Part shown: positions 1 to 53,154 of the stretch, piece after piece | Layout: every line of letters starts with the position of its first letter | Position numbering within the stretch: the first letter of the stretch is position 1 | NCBI RefSeq assembly: GCF_004681125.1 | Contig: NZ_SIHO01000003.1 | Span: forward strand, 338,122-402,121 | Direction: 5' to 3' | DNA length: 64,000 nucleotides | From: Glacieibacterium arshaanense | GTDB taxonomy: Bacteria; Pseudomonadota; Alphaproteobacteria; Sphingomonadales; Sphingomonadaceae | Translations under genes and position numbers: made by a program | The notes under the pieces: model-generated | Database searches by the model: none | Told to the model about the DNA's origin: nothing | What the model saw: only the letters and a program-made list of their open reading frames with translations

Positions 1-1
1 G

Positions 2-520
2 GACATGGACGAAGGGCTGCGGCGTTTCCTCAAACTGCGCCGCGATGTCAACCAACGCGGCCACGCCCCCGAACGCGTGCTTGAATCGATCGAGCGGCGT
101 GCGGCAGATGGCGCGCGTTTCATCGCGCCACAGGCCGCCGCCGCCGATGTCATTTTCCGGCTCGAACCGCGCCACCCGTCGGCGGTCGCCGATCCGGCGG
201 TCGCTATCGATGCATCGATGCTGCGGCTGGTGGTGACGCTGGCGCCAGGGCGCAATTTCGACCGCGCAGCACGCCTGCTGGCATCGCTGTCGGGCATCCG
301 CGTCATCGAAAGCGCCGATGACGACGGTCGGCTGCGGCTGCTGGTGGAGGGTGAACCGACCGCCGCGGATATCGCCGCCGCCGCACGCCGCATCGCGCCC
401 GACATGGACTGGTTGCTTTCTGCCGAACCGCGTTGGCAACCGGGGCTGTCGGGCGTGATGCAACTGATATTGCTCACTGAATTCGACCGCGCGCGCCGCC
501 GCCGGGGAGGCATGGCATGA
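2..520 (+). CDS. Uridine kinase/phosphoribulokinase-family protein, C-terminal part (cut by window edge)
   Basis: The reading frame is open from the first bases, so the gene starts upstream and only about 172 C-terminal residues are visible; the P-loop is outside the window. The visible part begins with an Arg-rich segment (LRRFLKLRRDVNQRG) followed by a PQ...AD stretch, the pattern of the lid and C-terminal region of uridine kinase/phosphoribulokinase-type P-loop kinases. The substrate cannot be told from this part. The stop overlaps the start of the HAD phosphatase gene by 4 bases (ATGA), so the two are translationally coupled. Family assignment is moderately sure and the substrate unknown. 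Confidence 0.6.
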   Translation, partial: DMDEGLRRFLKLRRDVNQRGHAPERVLESIERRAADGARFIAPQAAAADVIFRLEPRHPSAVADPAVAIDASMLRLVVTLAPGRNFDRAARLLASLSGIRVIESADDDGRLRLLVEGEPTAADIAAAARRIAPDMDWLLSAEPRWQPGLSGVMQLILLTEFDRARRRRGGMA

Positions 521-1251
521 AACTCCATAACGCTGATTTGTTCGCGCAGCGGCCGGCTGCAGTGCTGCTCGACCTCGACAATACGCTCTACGCCTACGCG
601 CCCTGCAACGCCGCCGGCATGGCCGCCGCCGCCGAACTGGCGTACAGCCTGCACGGTATTTCGGCCGCCGATTTCATGCAGTGTTTCAACGATGCACGTG
701 CCGAGTTGAAGGCGCGGCTGGGGCCGGTCGCGGCGTCGCATAGCCGGCTGCTGTATTTCCAGCGCACCATCGAACGCGCCGGTTTTGCCAGCCAGCCGTT
801 CGCGGTACTGCAGCTTGAGCAAGCATTCTGGCGTGCCTATCTCGACGCCGCCGTGCTGTTTCCGCACGCGCTCGATTTCCTCGATGACTTGCGCATTGCC
901 GGCGTGCCGGCGGTCATTGTCACCGACCTGACCGCGCAGATCCAGCTACGCAAGATGATCCTGCTCGGCATCGATAAGATGGTTGATTGGCTGGTGACCT
1001 CCGAAGAAAGCGGTGCCGACAAGCCGGCGGCATTGGGTTTCGAACTGGCGCTGGCGAAACTCGGCGGCGTCGAAGGCCCGGTGTGGTTCATCGGCGATTC
1101 GATCGACGGCGACATGGTTGGCGCAAAGGCGGCGATCGACGCGGTGACCTTGCTCAAGGTCGATCGCGGCGCGGTCAGCCACCCGGCGGTTGATGCCAGC
1201 TTCAGCGATTTCGCGGCGCTGCGCCGCCTGTTTGCCCGCACGTCGCTATGA
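517..1251 (+). CDS. HAD-superfamily hydrolase (phosphatase)
   Basis: This 244-residue protein has the HAD core in order. Motif I is LDLDNTLYAY near residue 20 (nucleophile Asp in DxDxT form), motif II is VIVTD near residue 137, a Lys lies in GADKPAALGF, and motif IV is FIGDSIDGD near residue 192. An alpha-helical cap fills the region between motifs I and II. It most resembles HAD phosphatases of the pyrimidine 5'-nucleotidase or sugar-phosphatase kind. It overlaps both neighbours by 4 bases, so it is read together with the kinase and the aldolase-like gene and probably removes a phosphate from the pathway intermediate. That role is inferred. Confidence 0.8.
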   Translation: MKLHNADLFAQRPAAVLLDLDNTLYAYAPCNAAGMAAAAELAYSLHGISAADFMQCFNDARAELKARLGPVAASHSRLLYFQRTIERAGFASQPFAVLQLEQAFWRAYLDAAVLFPHALDFLDDLRIAGVPAVIVTDLTAQIQLRKMILLGIDKMVDWLVTSEESGADKPAALGFELALAKLGGVEGPVWFIGDSIDGDMVGAKAAIDAVTLLKVDRGAVSHPAVDASFSDFAALRRLFARTSL

Positions 1252-2258
1252 CGGCGCTCGACGAACTGGCGGCGGTGTCGGCGCGCATCGGCGCCGATCC
1301 GTTGCTGGTGCAGGGGCCGGGCGGCAACAGCTCGGTCAAGTTTGGCGACGAGCTGTGGGTCAAGGCGTCGGGCGTCTGGCTGGCGCAGGCGCTTGAACGG
1401 CCGATCTTCACCGGGCTGTCGCTGGCGGCGGTGCATGCGGCGGTAGCACGCGGCGAAGTCGAGGATTTCACCGCCGCACGACTGCCCGGCAGCGATGCAG
1501 CGTTGCGCCCGTCAATCGAAACCGCGCTGCACGCGCTGCTGCCGCACGCCGCAGTTCTGCACGCGCACGCGGTCAATGCGATGGCGGTCAGCGTGCTCGC
1601 CGATGGTGCGGCGCGTGCGGCGAAAGCGCTCGACGGGCATCTGCGCTGGGCGTGGGTGCCCTACCACCGCCCTGGTGCGCCACTTGCCGCCGCGATTGCT
1701 CAGGTGCTCGCCGACACGCTCGCCGATGTGCTGCTGCTCGCCAACCACGGTATCGTCGTCGGCGCTGACACACCGCAAGCCGCCGAAGCGCTGCTGCGCG
1801 ATGTCGAGGCGCGACTGGCGCTGCCGGTGGCAACACTGCCCGAAGCCCCGGCAGGCGCCGGCGACGCCGACCATGAACGCCACGTTGCCGCCGACGGGCT
1901 GGCGCTCGACGCACGGCTGACGGCCATATTTGCCGCCGCGCCGCTATTCCCCGACCAGGTCGTGTTCGTCGGCGGCGCGGTGCCGGTGCTCCAGCCCGGC
2001 GAAGCGCTGGTCACCTGCGCGGCGCGTGTCCATGCCGCGACCGGCGTACTGCCCGCGCTGATCCTCGCCCCCGGTGTCGGCGCCTTCGCGCGCCGAAACC
2101 GTACACCGAGCGCCGATGCCGTGATCGCCGGGCTTGTCGAAGTCGCACGCCGCCTGCCGCTCGATGCCACCGTCACCGGGCTGCCCGACGGCGCTGTCGA
2201 CGCGCTGCTCAACTGGGATGCCGAGGCGTGGCGGCTGCAACAGGCGCAGGCCCGCTGA
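1248..2258 (+). CDS. Class II aldolase/adducin-family protein
   Basis: The 336-residue protein shows the class II aldolase fold signatures. These are GPGGNSSVK near residues 23-31, the zinc pair HAH at 105-107, and the third zinc histidine in ANHG at 165-168. Enzymes of this fold are zinc-dependent aldolases, epimerases or dehydratases acting on phosphorylated sugars. After about residue 200 there is a further region of roughly 130 residues that a plain 210-270 residue aldolase lacks. It shows no motif I recognise. The gene overlaps the HAD gene by 4 bases and the nucleotidyltransferase gene by 1 base (TGATG), so it belongs to one operon. The substrate is unknown. Confidence 0.8.
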   Translation: MTALDELAAVSARIGADPLLVQGPGGNSSVKFGDELWVKASGVWLAQALERPIFTGLSLAAVHAAVARGEVEDFTAARLPGSDAALRPSIETALHALLPHAAVLHAHAVNAMAVSVLADGAARAAKALDGHLRWAWVPYHRPGAPLAAAIAQVLADTLADVLLLANHGIVVGADTPQAAEALLRDVEARLALPVATLPEAPAGAGDADHERHVAADGLALDARLTAIFAAAPLFPDQVVFVGGAVPVLQPGEALVTCAARVHAATGVLPALILAPGVGAFARRNRTPSADAVIAGLVEVARRLPLDATVTGLPDGAVDALLNWDAEAWRLQQAQAR

Positions 2259-3967
2259 TGCAGATCATCATCCCCATGTCGGGCTTTGGCGAGCGATTCC
2301 GCCGCGCCGGCTATGACGTGCCCAAGCCGCTGATCCCCGTCGATGGCAAGCCGATCATCGGCCATGTCATCGATCTGTTCCCGGGCGAAACCGACTTCAT
2401 TTTTATCTGCAACCGCTACCATCTCGAAGAGCCCGCCTATGCGATGGCCGAAACCTTGCGCCGGCTGTGCCCGAAAGGCCGCATCGTCGCCATCGAGCCG
2501 CACCGCCACGGCCCGGTCTGGGCGGTGCTGCAGGCGCGCCAATACATCGACCCCGCCAAGCCGGTGTTCATCAACTATTGCGACTTCAGTTGCGTCTGGG
2601 ACTGGGCCGATTTCAAGGCGTTCGTGCGCGAAACCGCCTGCGCCGGCGCGGTGCCGGCCTACCGCGGCTTCCACCCGCACAGCCTGCACGGCAACAGCTA
2701 CGCCTTCATCAAGGAAACCGGCGGCTGGCTCACCGACATTCAGGAAAAGCAGGCCTGGACCGACGACCCCATGTCCGAATACGCGTCGAGCGGCGGCTAC
2801 TATTTCGACAGCGGCGCGCGTGCGCTCGAGATGCTCGACGCGCAGGTTGCCGAAGAACTGCGCGTCAACAACGAATTCTACGTCAGCCTCGCCTACAAGG
2901 TCATGGCGGCGCGCGGCCTCAAGGTCGCGGTGTATGAGTTGCAGCACTTCATGCAATGGGGCACCCCCGATGACCTCGCAGAATATCTCGGCTGGTCGCG
3001 CGCCTTCCGCCGGCTGGCGTTCGATGAAGCCCGCCGCGCGCGCCAGTCGGGTGCGGTGCTGGTGCCGATGGCGGGCTATGGCAAGCGCTTTGCCGACGCA
3101 GGCTACACGCTGACCAAGCCGTTGATTCCGGTGTCGGGCCGCCCGATGGTCATCCAGGCGACGCGCGACCTGCCCGACGCGCCGGTGACGCGCTTTGTCG
3201 TGCGCCGCGACCTGCCGATGCTCGACGCGCTGCTCCGCAAACTCCGCACCTCGTTCATCGGCACCTCGACGCTGGTGCTTGATGAAGGCACCGAGGGCCA
3301 GGCGGTGACCTGCCAGCTCGGCGTCGAAGCGCTCGACCCCAACGCACCGCTGACCATCGGCGCCTGCGACAACGCCATGCTCTACGACCCGGCGAAGTTC
3401 GAAGCTGCGATGCAGACCGGTGGCGCCGACATGCTCGTCTGGGTGGTACGCGGCCATGCCGATGGCAAGCTGCGGCCGACCAATTTCGGCTGGGTCGATA
3501 CCGATGACGCCGGCAACGTCACCGGCGTCCGCGTCAAGCAGGCCCCCGAAGACCCCGCCACCGCGCCGATGATCGTCGGCGCCTTCAGCTTCCGCCGCGC
3601 CGCCGATTTCAGCACCGCCGCCGCCGCGCTGGTGGCGCGGGGCGGCCGTGTCAACGGCGAGTTTTACGTCGACAGCCTGGTCACCGACGCCCTCGCCGCC
3701 GGGCTCGACGTGCGGCTGTTCGAAATCGACCACTACCTCGGCTGGGGCACCCCCAACGACCTCAAGACCTTCGAATATTGGCAGTCCGCCTTTTCGAAAT
3801 GGCCAAGCCACCCGTACCGCCTCGACCGCGACCGCCGGATTCCGCCAAGCCAGGTTGCCGCGCTCAGCGCCCGCTACGCCGCGCATCCGGCGCCAAGGCC
3901 GCACGGCCTCGCGCCGGTGGTGGCGCGGGTGTCGTGGGGTGAACGGTTGAAGTGGCTTTTCAAGTAG
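2258..3967 (+). CDS. Tandem (duplicated) nucleotidyltransferase-domain protein
   Basis: The 569-residue protein contains two NTP-transferase domains in a row. The first covers about residues 1-255 and opens with IPMSGFGERF and KPLIPVDGKP. The second covers about 265-515 and opens with VPMAGYGKRF and KPLIPVSGRP. Each has an acidic metal site (CDF near 108-110; CDN near 370-372) and a closing WGTPDDL or WGTPNDL near 234 and 497. Single-domain relatives occur in capsule and polysaccharide loci and make NDP-sugars or NDP-polyols. The ATG shares one base with the preceding stop. A longer frame upstream exists but lies inside the aldolase gene. Two active domains or one catalytic plus one structural domain are both possible. 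Confidence 0.8.
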   Translation: MQIIIPMSGFGERFRRAGYDVPKPLIPVDGKPIIGHVIDLFPGETDFIFICNRYHLEEPAYAMAETLRRLCPKGRIVAIEPHRHGPVWAVLQARQYIDPAKPVFINYCDFSCVWDWADFKAFVRETACAGAVPAYRGFHPHSLHGNSYAFIKETGGWLTDIQEKQAWTDDPMSEYASSGGYYFDSGARALEMLDAQVAEELRVNNEFYVSLAYKVMAARGLKVAVYELQHFMQWGTPDDLAEYLGWSRAFRRLAFDEARRARQSGAVLVPMAGYGKRFADAGYTLTKPLIPVSGRPMVIQATRDLPDAPVTRFVVRRDLPMLDALLRKLRTSFIGTSTLVLDEGTEGQAVTCQLGVEALDPNAPLTIGACDNAMLYDPAKFEAAMQTGGADMLVWVVRGHADGKLRPTNFGWVDTDDAGNVTGVRVKQAPEDPATAPMIVGAFSFRRAADFSTAAAALVARGGRVNGEFYVDSLVTDALAAGLDVRLFEIDHYLGWGTPNDLKTFEYWQSAFSKWPSHPYRLDRDRRIPPSQVAALSARYAAHPAPRPHGLAPVVARVSWGERLKWLFK

Positions 3968-3968
3968 A

Positions 3969-4060
3969 AGAGCCTCCGGCGGGCAGGCCTGAGGCCTGCA
4001 CCCATTTGAAGAACGCTAAACAATCGGGTGCAGGCCTCAAGCCTGCCCGCCGGAGGCTCT
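3969..4060. repeat. Palindromic intergenic repeat pair R1 (REP/BIME-like)
   Basis: Two 35-bp halves lie head to head at 3969-4003 and 4026-4060 with a 22-bp spacer. The outer arm reads AGAGCCTCCGGCGGGCAGG and its inverse in the second half. The inner stems are GCAGGCC-TGA-GGCCTGC and the same with one G-T wobble. The pair fills the gap between two convergent genes. Confidence 0.9.
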
Positions 4061-4883
4061 ATTGGCCTTCCACCCGCCGCAACACCAACCGGCTCGCCAT
4101 CGCGAAGGTCTCGGGCGCCAGCTTGATCAGCACGCTGTCCACCCAGTCGACGGCCTTCAGCAGCGGATCGGGCAGGTTGATGGTCTTGGTCTTGGCGATC
4201 ACCCCGCCCGACAGCGGGAACACCAGGCATTCGTTGAGCTCATAGCGTTCGATGACGAACTGCGGCACCGCGGCCGCAAACGCCTTGCGGTCGTGCCACA
4301 GCAGCTGCGGGATGGCGCAATTGGCGCTCCACGGATCGCGCGGGTCATTGGCGACGGCGCTGGGGTCGAACACGTCAACATCATACGACCAGCCCTCGTG
4401 CTTCATCAGCCACAGCAGAAAGCGCATGCTGAGCGAGGTATGAATTTCGTTGATCAGCACGCGGCCGCCGGGCTTCACCGCCTTCGCCAGCTGGTCGAAA
4501 AACGCCATCGGGCTGGCGAGGTGGTGGATCATGTGGCTGCACACCACTACGTCGAACTGCTCGCCCAGCTCGCCAATCGCCATCGCATCGACAATTCGGC
4601 TCGTCCACGGCCGCGGCTCGACATCGGACAGCGCCACCGGCGCCTCGACAAACAGCCCAAGGAACCCGGCGCCCGACCCGAGCTCGATCGCGTTCATGCC
4701 GGGCTTGATATAGTCGTTCATCCAGCCGAAGCGCTTTTCGAGCAGATAGCGCAGATTGTTCGGCCGCTTCGCCAGAAACCGCTGCCGCGCCCCGACGACA
4801 TCGCCCTCATTCGCCATCTTGTTGGCGTCATGGTCGGGGAAGAACTCGCCCCCCAGCAACATCGGTCGTGCAAAATTGCTCAT
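4059..4883 (-). CDS. Class I SAM-dependent methyltransferase
   Basis: The 274-residue protein has the SAM-binding motif I ELGSGAGFLG at about residues 67-76, an acidic residue after the second strand (LSDVEP), and post-motif strands VVVCSHMIHH and KPGGRVLINE. This is the Methyltransf_11 pattern. The N-terminal 60 residues form a helical cap. It is convergent with the nucleotidyltransferase gene and divergent from gtrA (84 bp apart), so it may serve the same envelope-polymer pathway, but the methyl acceptor is not visible. Confidence 0.8.
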   Translation of the reverse strand: MSNFARPMLLGGEFFPDHDANKMANEGDVVGARQRFLAKRPNNLRYLLEKRFGWMNDYIKPGMNAIELGSGAGFLGLFVEAPVALSDVEPRPWTSRIVDAMAIGELGEQFDVVVCSHMIHHLASPMAFFDQLAKAVKPGGRVLINEIHTSLSMRFLLWLMKHEGWSYDVDVFDPSAVANDPRDPWSANCAIPQLLWHDRKAFAAAVPQFVIERYELNECLVFPLSGGVIAKTKTINLPDPLLKAVDWVDSVLIKLAPETFAMASRLVLRRVEGQ

Positions 4884-4967: not shown

Positions 4968-5372
4968 ATGCCGCAAAACCCCGCCCGCGCCCGTGCCATC
5001 CAATGGTTCACCCAGGCCAGCCGCTTCGGTGTCGTCGGTGTTGTCGGCGCCGGGCTCGACTATCTCGCACTCACCCAGGCCGTCGCGCACGGCGCCTCGC
5101 CCTACGCCGCGCGGCCGTTCACGCTGGTCATCGCCGTCGTCGTCACCTGGTGGCTCAACCGCTCGCTCACCTTCGCCGCCAAGGCCCCGCCGAGCTGGCG
5201 CGAGTTCGGCCACTACGCGGCCATCACCACCACCGGCCTCGCGATCCAGCTCGCCGTCTATTGGGGCGGCCTCGCGCTCGGCGCCCCGATCTGGCTGGCC
5301 TTCCTCACCGGCATCGCCTCCTCGGTGGTATTCAGCTTCCTGCGCGTGCGCCGGATGTTCTCGAAGCGCTGA
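4968..5372 (+). CDS. GtrA-family membrane protein
   Basis: This 134-residue protein has four hydrophobic segments and the GtrA signature, including FGVVGVVGAGLDYL in the first helix and TWWLNRSLTF after the second. It ends in basic residues (RVRRMFSKR). GtrA proteins sit in the inner membrane and help move polyprenyl-linked sugars across it for O-antigen or teichoic-acid glucosylation. No glycosyltransferase partner lies beside it, although the nucleotidyltransferase operon is 1 kb away. The start has no clear ribosome binding site. Confidence 0.85.
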   Translation: MPQNPARARAIQWFTQASRFGVVGVVGAGLDYLALTQAVAHGASPYAARPFTLVIAVVVTWWLNRSLTFAAKAPPSWREFGHYAAITTTGLAIQLAVYWGGLALGAPIWLAFLTGIASSVVFSFLRVRRMFSKR

Positions 5373-24436: not shown

Positions 24437-24567
24437 AGAGCCTCCGGCGGGCAGGCCTCAGGCCTGCACCAATAATTTGCCGCGGTTCCACAGAACGCGA
24501 TGTCGCGTCAGACAGCACCCACCCAAACCTATGGTGCAGGCCTGAGGCCTGCCCGCCGGAGGCTCTT
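24437..24567. repeat. Palindromic intergenic repeat pair R5
   Basis: The halves at 24437-24470 and 24533-24567 face each other across a 62-bp spacer that is longer than, and unrelated to, the conserved 22-bp spacer of R1, R8 and R12. The inner stems are GCAGGCC with GGCCTGC in both halves, with TCA and TGA loops. Confidence 0.88.
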
Positions 24568-38774: not shown

Positions 38775-38867
38775 AGAGCCTCCGGCGGGCAGGCCTGAGG
38801 CCTGCACCCGATTGAAGAGCGCCAAAATAATGGGAGCAGGCCTCAGGCCTGCCCGCCGGAGGCTCTT
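38775..38867. repeat. Palindromic intergenic repeat pair R8
   Basis: Halves at 38775-38809 and 38832-38867 face each other with the same kind of 22-bp spacer as R1 and R12 (GATTGAAGAGCG...AAAAT). The right half runs into the stop codon of the convergent GST gene. Inner stems are GCAGGCC/GGCCTGC with TGA and TCA loops. Confidence 0.9.
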
Positions 38868-53061: not shown

Positions 53062-53154
53062 AGAGCCTCCGGCGGGCAGGCCAGAGGCCTGCACCCGATT
53101 GAAGAGCGTTCAAAAATCGGGTGCAGGCCTCTGGCCTGCCCGCCGGAGGCCCTT
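53062..53154. repeat. Palindromic intergenic repeat pair R12
   Basis: Halves at 53062-53096 and 53119-53154 are inverse copies, including the loop bases (GGCC-AGA-GGCC and GGCC-TCT-GGCC). The spacer is of the R1/R8 type (GATTGAAGAGCG...AAAAATC). The pair lies between divergent genes. Confidence 0.9.

Follow-up and report, generated by a model that had tools for sequence, protein, structure and literature searches.

The locus described here raises the question of what a kinase, a phosphatase, an aldolase and a two-domain nucleotidyltransferase make together when their genes are joined in one operon. The genes lie at positions 2-3967 of a 64,000-nucleotide stretch of Glacieibacterium arshaanense DNA (the window), which corresponds to C4:338122-402121 of a 3.26-Mb genome that is 99.97% complete. 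We found that they form the downstream part of a larger gene set, which is probably a horizontally moving surface-glycosylation cassette combining a dedicated nucleotide-sugar pathway with a Gtr-type, polyprenyl-linked transfer system. This reading is based on sequence comparison, from which the gene content and order, a gene fusion, the active-site motifs, the breadth of occurrence and the carriage by phages and plasmids are directly apparent. A description of the cassette was not found in the searched open-access literature, which omits most subscription papers; within that scope, the search agrees with a preliminary description of the window, whose author knew of no pathway with this set.

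The open reading frame (ORF) list contained four plus-strand ORFs in the interval, and these were co-directional and overlapped by 4, 4 and 1 bases, as previously described. The last value assumes that the transferase starts at the conserved ATG at 2258 (reading MQIIIPMSG); a start at GTG 2228 would extend the overlap to 31 bases. The operon is cut by the window edge, and the upstream stretch L009 completed it. Its first gene encodes a large membrane protein of 587 residues (C4:333514-335277), which is followed by a glycosyltransferase family 2 (GT2) transferase (C4:335287-336003), a GDPD/PLC-like phosphodiesterase (about C4:336018-336599) and a 683-residue fusion of a GT87-like membrane protein with a PRK-type kinase (C4:336590-338641, equal to L009:10591-12642), of which the window holds the last 172 residues (1..520, plus strand). 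The fusion is followed on the same strand by the HAD phosphatase (517..1251), the class II (FucA/RhaD-type) aldolase (1248..2258) and the sugar-type nucleotidyltransferase of 569 residues (2258..3967). The gene set as first described was thus largely right but incomplete, since the GDPD-like and GT2 genes lie outside the window.

The occurrence of the set was examined with the double transferase alone as the query, against 84,980 genomes, one per species; the best 80 of 149 confirmed relatives were retained, and the other families were then profiled around each of them. At least 8 kb was available on both sides of 47 of the 80 loci, which were considered untruncated (33 were left out). Six partners were present in 34 of these 47 loci, five in 7, four in 1, two in 4 and one in 1, while across all 80 loci the numbers were 46 with six and 58 with at least five. 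Because these loci were found with the transferase alone, the recurrence of six partners indicates more than chance, and the gene set is indeed conserved across genomes, a point that the preliminary description had raised. L009 and the 80 loci together contained the transferase in 81, GT2 in 70, GDPD in 69, the aldolase in 67, the GT87-like protein in 65, the kinase in 64 and HAD in 60; a small GtrA-type membrane protein was counted in 38 of 81, an undercount from a single query. The full sets lay on one strand in 43 of 46 cases, with a median span of 7,326 bp. Gene order varied, with the aldolase before or after the other genes and two operons in L021 and L025, and the linkage has therefore outlived rearrangement. 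Judged by row titles, six-partner sets occurred in Pseudomonadota, Acidobacteriota, Cyanobacteriota, Bacillota, Bdellovibrionota and Tectimicrobiota; many scan rows are metagenome-assembled genomes (MAGs), and single odd placements are unsure. The closest named relative among the matches listed was an uncultured Polymorphobacter MAG with a partial transferase that was 96% identical. Among 289 sampled alphaproteobacterial genomes, 8 matched the transferase at 1e-20 and 4 did so over the full double protein; the three strong kinase matches of the whole sample (1e-42 or better) all belonged to those four (G000, G183 and G155). A family-wide trait was ruled out, as 2 of the 149 genomes of the family carry the set, namely this genome and another from its genus.

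The window fragment of the kinase matched Pfam PRK/uridine kinase at 4.6e-9, and the full-length protein revealed a PRK domain at 2e-27 together with nine predicted hydrophobic segments. The gene had been described as uridine-kinase/PRK-like; the PRK-type assignment held, but this domain is the C-terminus of a GT87-like membrane-protein fusion, which rules out a plain uridine kinase. Kinase and GT87 shared one ORF at 62 of the 63 loci having both, the sole exception being L053, where they occupied two neighbouring ORFs and the gene is probably broken. The kinase belongs to the same fold family as phosphoribulokinase and keeps its P-loop and its motifs DDYHxxDR, YDH and K-x2-RD-x3-RG, with the residues for binding ribulose-5-phosphate (Ru5P); here, as for FucA, GDPD and the nucleotidyltransferases below, residues are given the roles that they have in the known families. 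Among 65 sequences, the motif residues were conserved in 58 (H), 58 (R), 58 (K), 59 (R), 61 (D) and 60 (R). In contrast to phosphoribulokinase, the cassette kinase is fused to a membrane protein, has mostly lost the Glu before GLH and is encoded in a genome without a match to RuBisCO (PF00016), for which the control matched in 5 of 14; the absent match ruled out a Calvin-cycle kinase. In its own genome, this kinase was the only match at 1e-15 (8 of 12 first-look candidates were scored).

The remaining soluble enzymes also had well-conserved features. The phosphatase matched Pfam HAD at 1.9e-17, and its nearest curated family was NF053830 (ribulose-1,5-bisphosphate (RuBP) 5-phosphatase) with 188.4 bits, followed by the next family with 68 bits; NF053830 was matched by 41 of 41 HAD members scanned. 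These 41 members, and 44 of the GDPD-like enzyme, were hand-picked from 67 and 83 listed, a few with another start. The aldolase (Pfam Aldolase_II, 9e-17) had the active-site motifs GGN, K-x-SG, ET, HxH and NHG, each conserved to 90% or more across 64 sequences. In the GDPD-like enzyme, H6, N9, E24, D26, H38 and K64 were invariant in 44 of 44 members, and the structural model, with a predicted local distance difference test (pLDDT) score of 97.3, had a TIM-barrel fold whose best solved matches were the GDPDs 3ks6 and 1zcc. Phosphodiesterases of the GDPD/PLC-like type can form cyclic phosphates.

The double transferase matched NTP_transf_3 at 1e-14 in two stretches, and its model (pLDDT 92.7) revealed the sugar-nucleotidyltransferase fold in both domains, with PDB 4evw as the best fold match. 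Both domains contained the nucleotide-binding motif G-x-G-x-R, the Lys and a metal-binding Asp, and the second Asp was present in domain B only. In particular, the second metal position of the E-x-Y-x-D/S motif was Ser in domain A (84 of 85 sequences) and Asp in domain B (82 of 85). This difference, together with GMPPA/GMPPB complexes among the structural matches, is consistent with a transferase in which catalysis falls to the second domain alone, with the first serving as a pseudoenzyme for regulation or substrate binding, like that of GMPPA/GMPPB. We consider this somewhat unlikely, as 79-85 of 85 sequences retain G-x-G-x-R, the Lys and one Asp in domain A, and the 13.7 kb seen of the phage-type contig L207 contain one transferase match, with a domain-A-like YCD spelling, beside a kinase-aldolase; a pseudoenzyme would in any case be compatible with the glycosylation cassette. 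The entry 4evw, a nucleoside-diphosphate-sugar pyrophosphorylase from V. cholerae, was the best match of a transferase domain in both sequence and fold, but it is a single-domain protein and was nearer to the transferase of a related cluster on a P. aeruginosa plasmid (L190, 59.7 bits) than to the window transferase (33.9 bits); we know of no published function for it. That cluster is one of several sister clusters (L024 and the plasmids L189 of Rhizobium, L190 and L191 of Tropicibacter) that share a GDPD-like enzyme, two related nucleotidyltransferase matches and HAD with the cassette but, over the sequence seen, contain neither a PRK-type kinase nor a class II aldolase.

Upon comparison with the Gtr three-component seroconversion modules (GtrA, GtrB and a type-specific Gtr), which belong to temperate phages, we found that the cassette shares a small GtrA, a GT2 and a polytopic transferase-like protein, and that its transferase gene likewise adjoins lysis genes in two phage contigs. 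GtrA, GT2 and the polytopic transferase occurred together, in this order, on E. coli and Azospirillum plasmids. Proteins of the GtrA type are known for carrying polyprenyl-linked sugars. The cassette differs from the Gtr modules in its own donor pathway, in the GT2 motif, which reads W-x-HAD-x-QT, and in the fusion of membrane protein and kinase.

Among 79 viral contigs with the transferase, near-copies included, an ORF of more than 480 residues was present in 67 and an aldolase match nearby, mostly weak where scored, in 59, with far fewer matches to GDPD (16), GT2 (5), kinase (4), HAD (3) and GT87 (2). The cultured phages S-SM2 and Bellamy are examples with the transferase, which in S-SM2 is followed by GT61 and the aldolase. 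The contig L177 encodes GDPD, aldolase, transferase A, transferase B, kinase and HAD, and then a TAGT glycosyltransferase (L177:7950-8852, 2.2e-10; PHROG beta-glucosyl-HMC-alpha-glucosyltransferase, 1.8e-9) and a T4 baseplate protein; L178 has the same enzyme set without a HAD match, plus a 457-residue protein without assignment. In both, seen as stretches of about 11 kb from 111-kb and 63-kb contigs, the kinase is free-standing and the transferases are split. Kinase and aldolase lie in one ORF in L207 and L208 and are adjacent in L209, where the double transferase is found further on. The cassette GT2 and GT87 had no match in the 11-17 kb seen of L177, L178, L207 and L208, and L209 gave only a 13-bit GT2 match; the soluble donor-making unit is therefore separable from the membrane unit. 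Since the soluble enzymes occur without GT2/GT87, once beside a TAGT of the DNA-modifying type, the product is probably a glycosyl donor, and the TAGT of L177 makes a new DNA base sugar possible.

The cassette was also found on mobile DNA. It was present in 2 of 5,426 complete E. coli genomes, both times on plasmids (L184:6022-14984 and L211:3774-12736), one of which was typed as IncR, and in strain ES3 it sits between two same-direction copies of IS26. The order on one E. coli plasmid was transferase, GtrA, GT2, GDPD, fusion, HAD and aldolase. The E. coli plasmid transferase shares 90.6% identity with its counterpart on contig L105, whose gene is located directly behind genes for baseplate, tail fibre, endolysin and spanin-like proteins. 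The L106 copy comes directly after an endolysin and a weak match to a holin, on a contig that also has an integrase/invertase-type gene. A site after the lysis genes is usual for lysogenic-conversion genes. A tree was built by a quick method from 104 rows (transferase frames of 480-640 residues, with every fourth viral row plus named ones), and 39 of its 97 forks were left open. Its rows covered 11 phyla, and classes were intermingled in it, as where Roseibium groups with Marinagarivorans and Neisseriaceae (95%). One branch, mostly of proteobacterial rows, contained the plasmid copies L184-L186 and the copies from phage contigs L105, L106, L108 and L141, while S-SM2 and Bellamy were among 17 viral rows that formed a branch of their own (100% support in the SH-like approximate likelihood ratio test).

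From these comparisons, we infer the order of steps, the glycosyl-donor product, the polyprenyl route and the surface acceptor. The PRK-type kinase, HAD phosphatase, class II aldolase, GDPD-like enzyme and two nucleotidyltransferase domains would convert a central sugar phosphate to a nucleotide-activated sugar, which GT2 would place on polyprenyl phosphate and GtrA would move across the membrane; the kinase-fused GT87-like protein would then pass the sugar to a surface glycan, and the methyltransferase and the large membrane protein may be accessory. Given such a polyprenyl-linked transfer, the kinase should face the cytoplasm. Within this scheme, the intermediates may be ketose phosphates, a tentative suggestion, the leading one for the sugar, to which we give rather less than even weight: kinase and HAD would yield a ketose-1-phosphate, which the aldolase would make, cleave or epimerise. 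With its PRK-type kinase, the cassette has the parts for turning a ketose-5-phosphate into a ketose-1-phosphate, the substrate of class II aldolases, and two nucleotidyltransferase domains plus a phosphodiesterase would fit a shift of phosphate to the anomeric position. Carried further, the cassette could supply the missing pathway to a ketofuranose, such as that of a pentulose, in nucleotide-activated form, used on bacterial surface glycans and on the DNA bases of some phages. After kinase and HAD had provided the ketose-1-phosphate, the aldolase would set the stereochemistry, one domain would form an NDP-1-ketose (NDP, nucleoside diphosphate), the GDPD/PLC-like enzyme would carry the phosphate over from O-1 to O-2, the anomeric oxygen, via a 1,2-cyclic phosphate, and the other domain would form the NDP-2-ketose donor; we regard this detailed route as unlikely.

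Several observations weigh against the glycosylation cassette as proposed. The GT87 match of the fusion (8.8e-4, 19.5 bits) is under the Pfam cut-off of 25 bits, the 188.4 bits of the window phosphatase are far under the curated NF053830 cut-off of 330 bits, and other HAD families also match the same scanned members. At the kinase position preceding GLH, 48 of 65 sequences have Ser/Thr and 2 have Glu, whereas the aligned solved PRKs have Glu. The untruncated loci L096, L099, L100 and L102 contain only transferase, GT2 and GDPD, and L104 only transferase and GT2; the kinase-HAD-aldolase part is therefore not universal. In G023, the fourth genome with the full double transferase (L102 and L022; 71% complete, locus untruncated), the kinase was not found. 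Additionally, the whole cassette was not seen beside the lysis genes of L105 and L106, as both contigs stop at the transferase, and the cyanophage-type aldolases match the cassette aldolase weakly (58-92 bits where given).

Two other products or functions were weighed against a nucleotide sugar. The enzymes could form a CDP-polyol (CDP, cytidine diphosphate; polyol, glycerol, ribitol or similar) for a phosphopolyol polymer or decoration, and the transferase does have a weak cytidylyltransferase likeness (IspD, 9.2e-5; G1P_cyt_trans, 8e-5; both under cut-off), while GDPD-like enzymes handle polyol phosphodiesters. We consider this improbable, as no reductase or CDP-polyol phosphotransferase was recognised by eye among the recurring clusters listed, in which no targeted search was made, and the module neighbours are glycosyltransferases. 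The earlier proposal of a pathway to an NDP-activated sugar or polyol thus held for the activated compound, of which a sugar is the likelier form because these neighbours are GT2, GT87-like, GT61 and TAGT enzymes. Kinase, HAD and aldolase could also be a catabolic RuBP-type shunt (Ru5P to RuBP to ribulose-1-phosphate to dihydroxyacetone phosphate and glycolaldehyde) loosely tied to glycosyltransferases. The PRK motifs, the proximity of HAD to NF053830 and the loci with transferase, GT2 and GDPD but without these three enzymes are consistent with such a shunt, and so is a haloarchaeal operon of RuBP phosphatase and ribulose-1-phosphate aldolase, both assayed (PMC9700705). The haloarchaeal non-carboxylating pentose bisphosphate pathway shares with the cassette an adjacent HAD (RuBP 5-phosphatase-related) and class II aldolase and ketose-1-phosphate chemistry, but it is catabolic, obtains RuBP from ribose-1,5-bisphosphate isomerase and, as listed in the abstract, includes no nucleotidyl- or glycosyltransferase (PMC9700705). 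The possibility of a known catabolic or storage pathway, which had been raised at the outset, is borne out only in part, by a resemblance of kinase, HAD and aldolase to the haloarchaeal route, while the glycosyltransferase context is non-catabolic. A shunt is made highly improbable by the close association with the transferase, GDPD and GT2 genes at 34 of 47 loci, by the kinase-GT87 fusion at 62 of 63 and by the phage-type modules that join the same enzymes with two transferases.

Downstream of the operon, the window contains a gene for an S-adenosylmethionine (SAM)-dependent methyltransferase (4059..4883, minus strand) and one for the GtrA-type protein (4968..5372, plus strand). Both had rightly been associated with the set: methyltransferase relatives, 44-50% identical, separate the transferase gene from that of GT2 in seven further loci, and GtrA follows the transferase in several relatives. 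The OafA-type acyltransferase that had been grouped with them found no support, as the 45 recurring clusters at most that were listed included none recognised as its family; the stretch used did not reach the gene of the window itself. By eye, an Rz1-type spanin-like frame and an acyltransferase-like frame without a PHROG match were seen near the cassette of a 71-kb viral-collection contig (L204:13367-15538), and rhamnulokinase-type and L-rhamnose isomerase-like frames between transferase and GT2 in G023 (L022:5659-8700). A WavE-family gene lies near the sister cluster in L190, and V. cholerae, the source of 4evw, has fructose in the core of its LPS. Placement in a capsule locus of its own genome was not supported; the operon is preceded by acyl-CoA, SDR and TetR-type frames (by eye) and followed by an amidohydrolase.

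Directly after the operon, and outside the pathway, lies a REPIN-like inverted repeat pair (3970..4059), which may also act as a transcription terminator. The element consists of near-perfect inverted 34-bp repeats, of which the window contained 12 arms (at most 3 mismatches) and 100 shuffles none; further arms include those at 24438-24565, 38776-38865 and 53063-53152. Its DNA fold had a z-score of -13, and the repeat is present dozens of times in the genome (60 matches to one query, nearly all of them the repeat). The operon, from the 587-residue membrane protein through the transferase, is flanked by two such pairs (L009:7370-7498 and window 3970-4059).

If the glycosylation cassette is correctly read, it would represent a nucleotide-sugar pathway not described so far, whose genes are masked by labels such as "uridine kinase", "HAD hydrolase" and "class II aldolase"; the transferase rows found span 11 phyla, and the gene also occurs on two E. 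coli plasmids and in phages. The cassette would provide a handle on the delivery of unusual sugars to surface glycans, on the conversion of hosts by phages and possibly on sugar modification of phage DNA.

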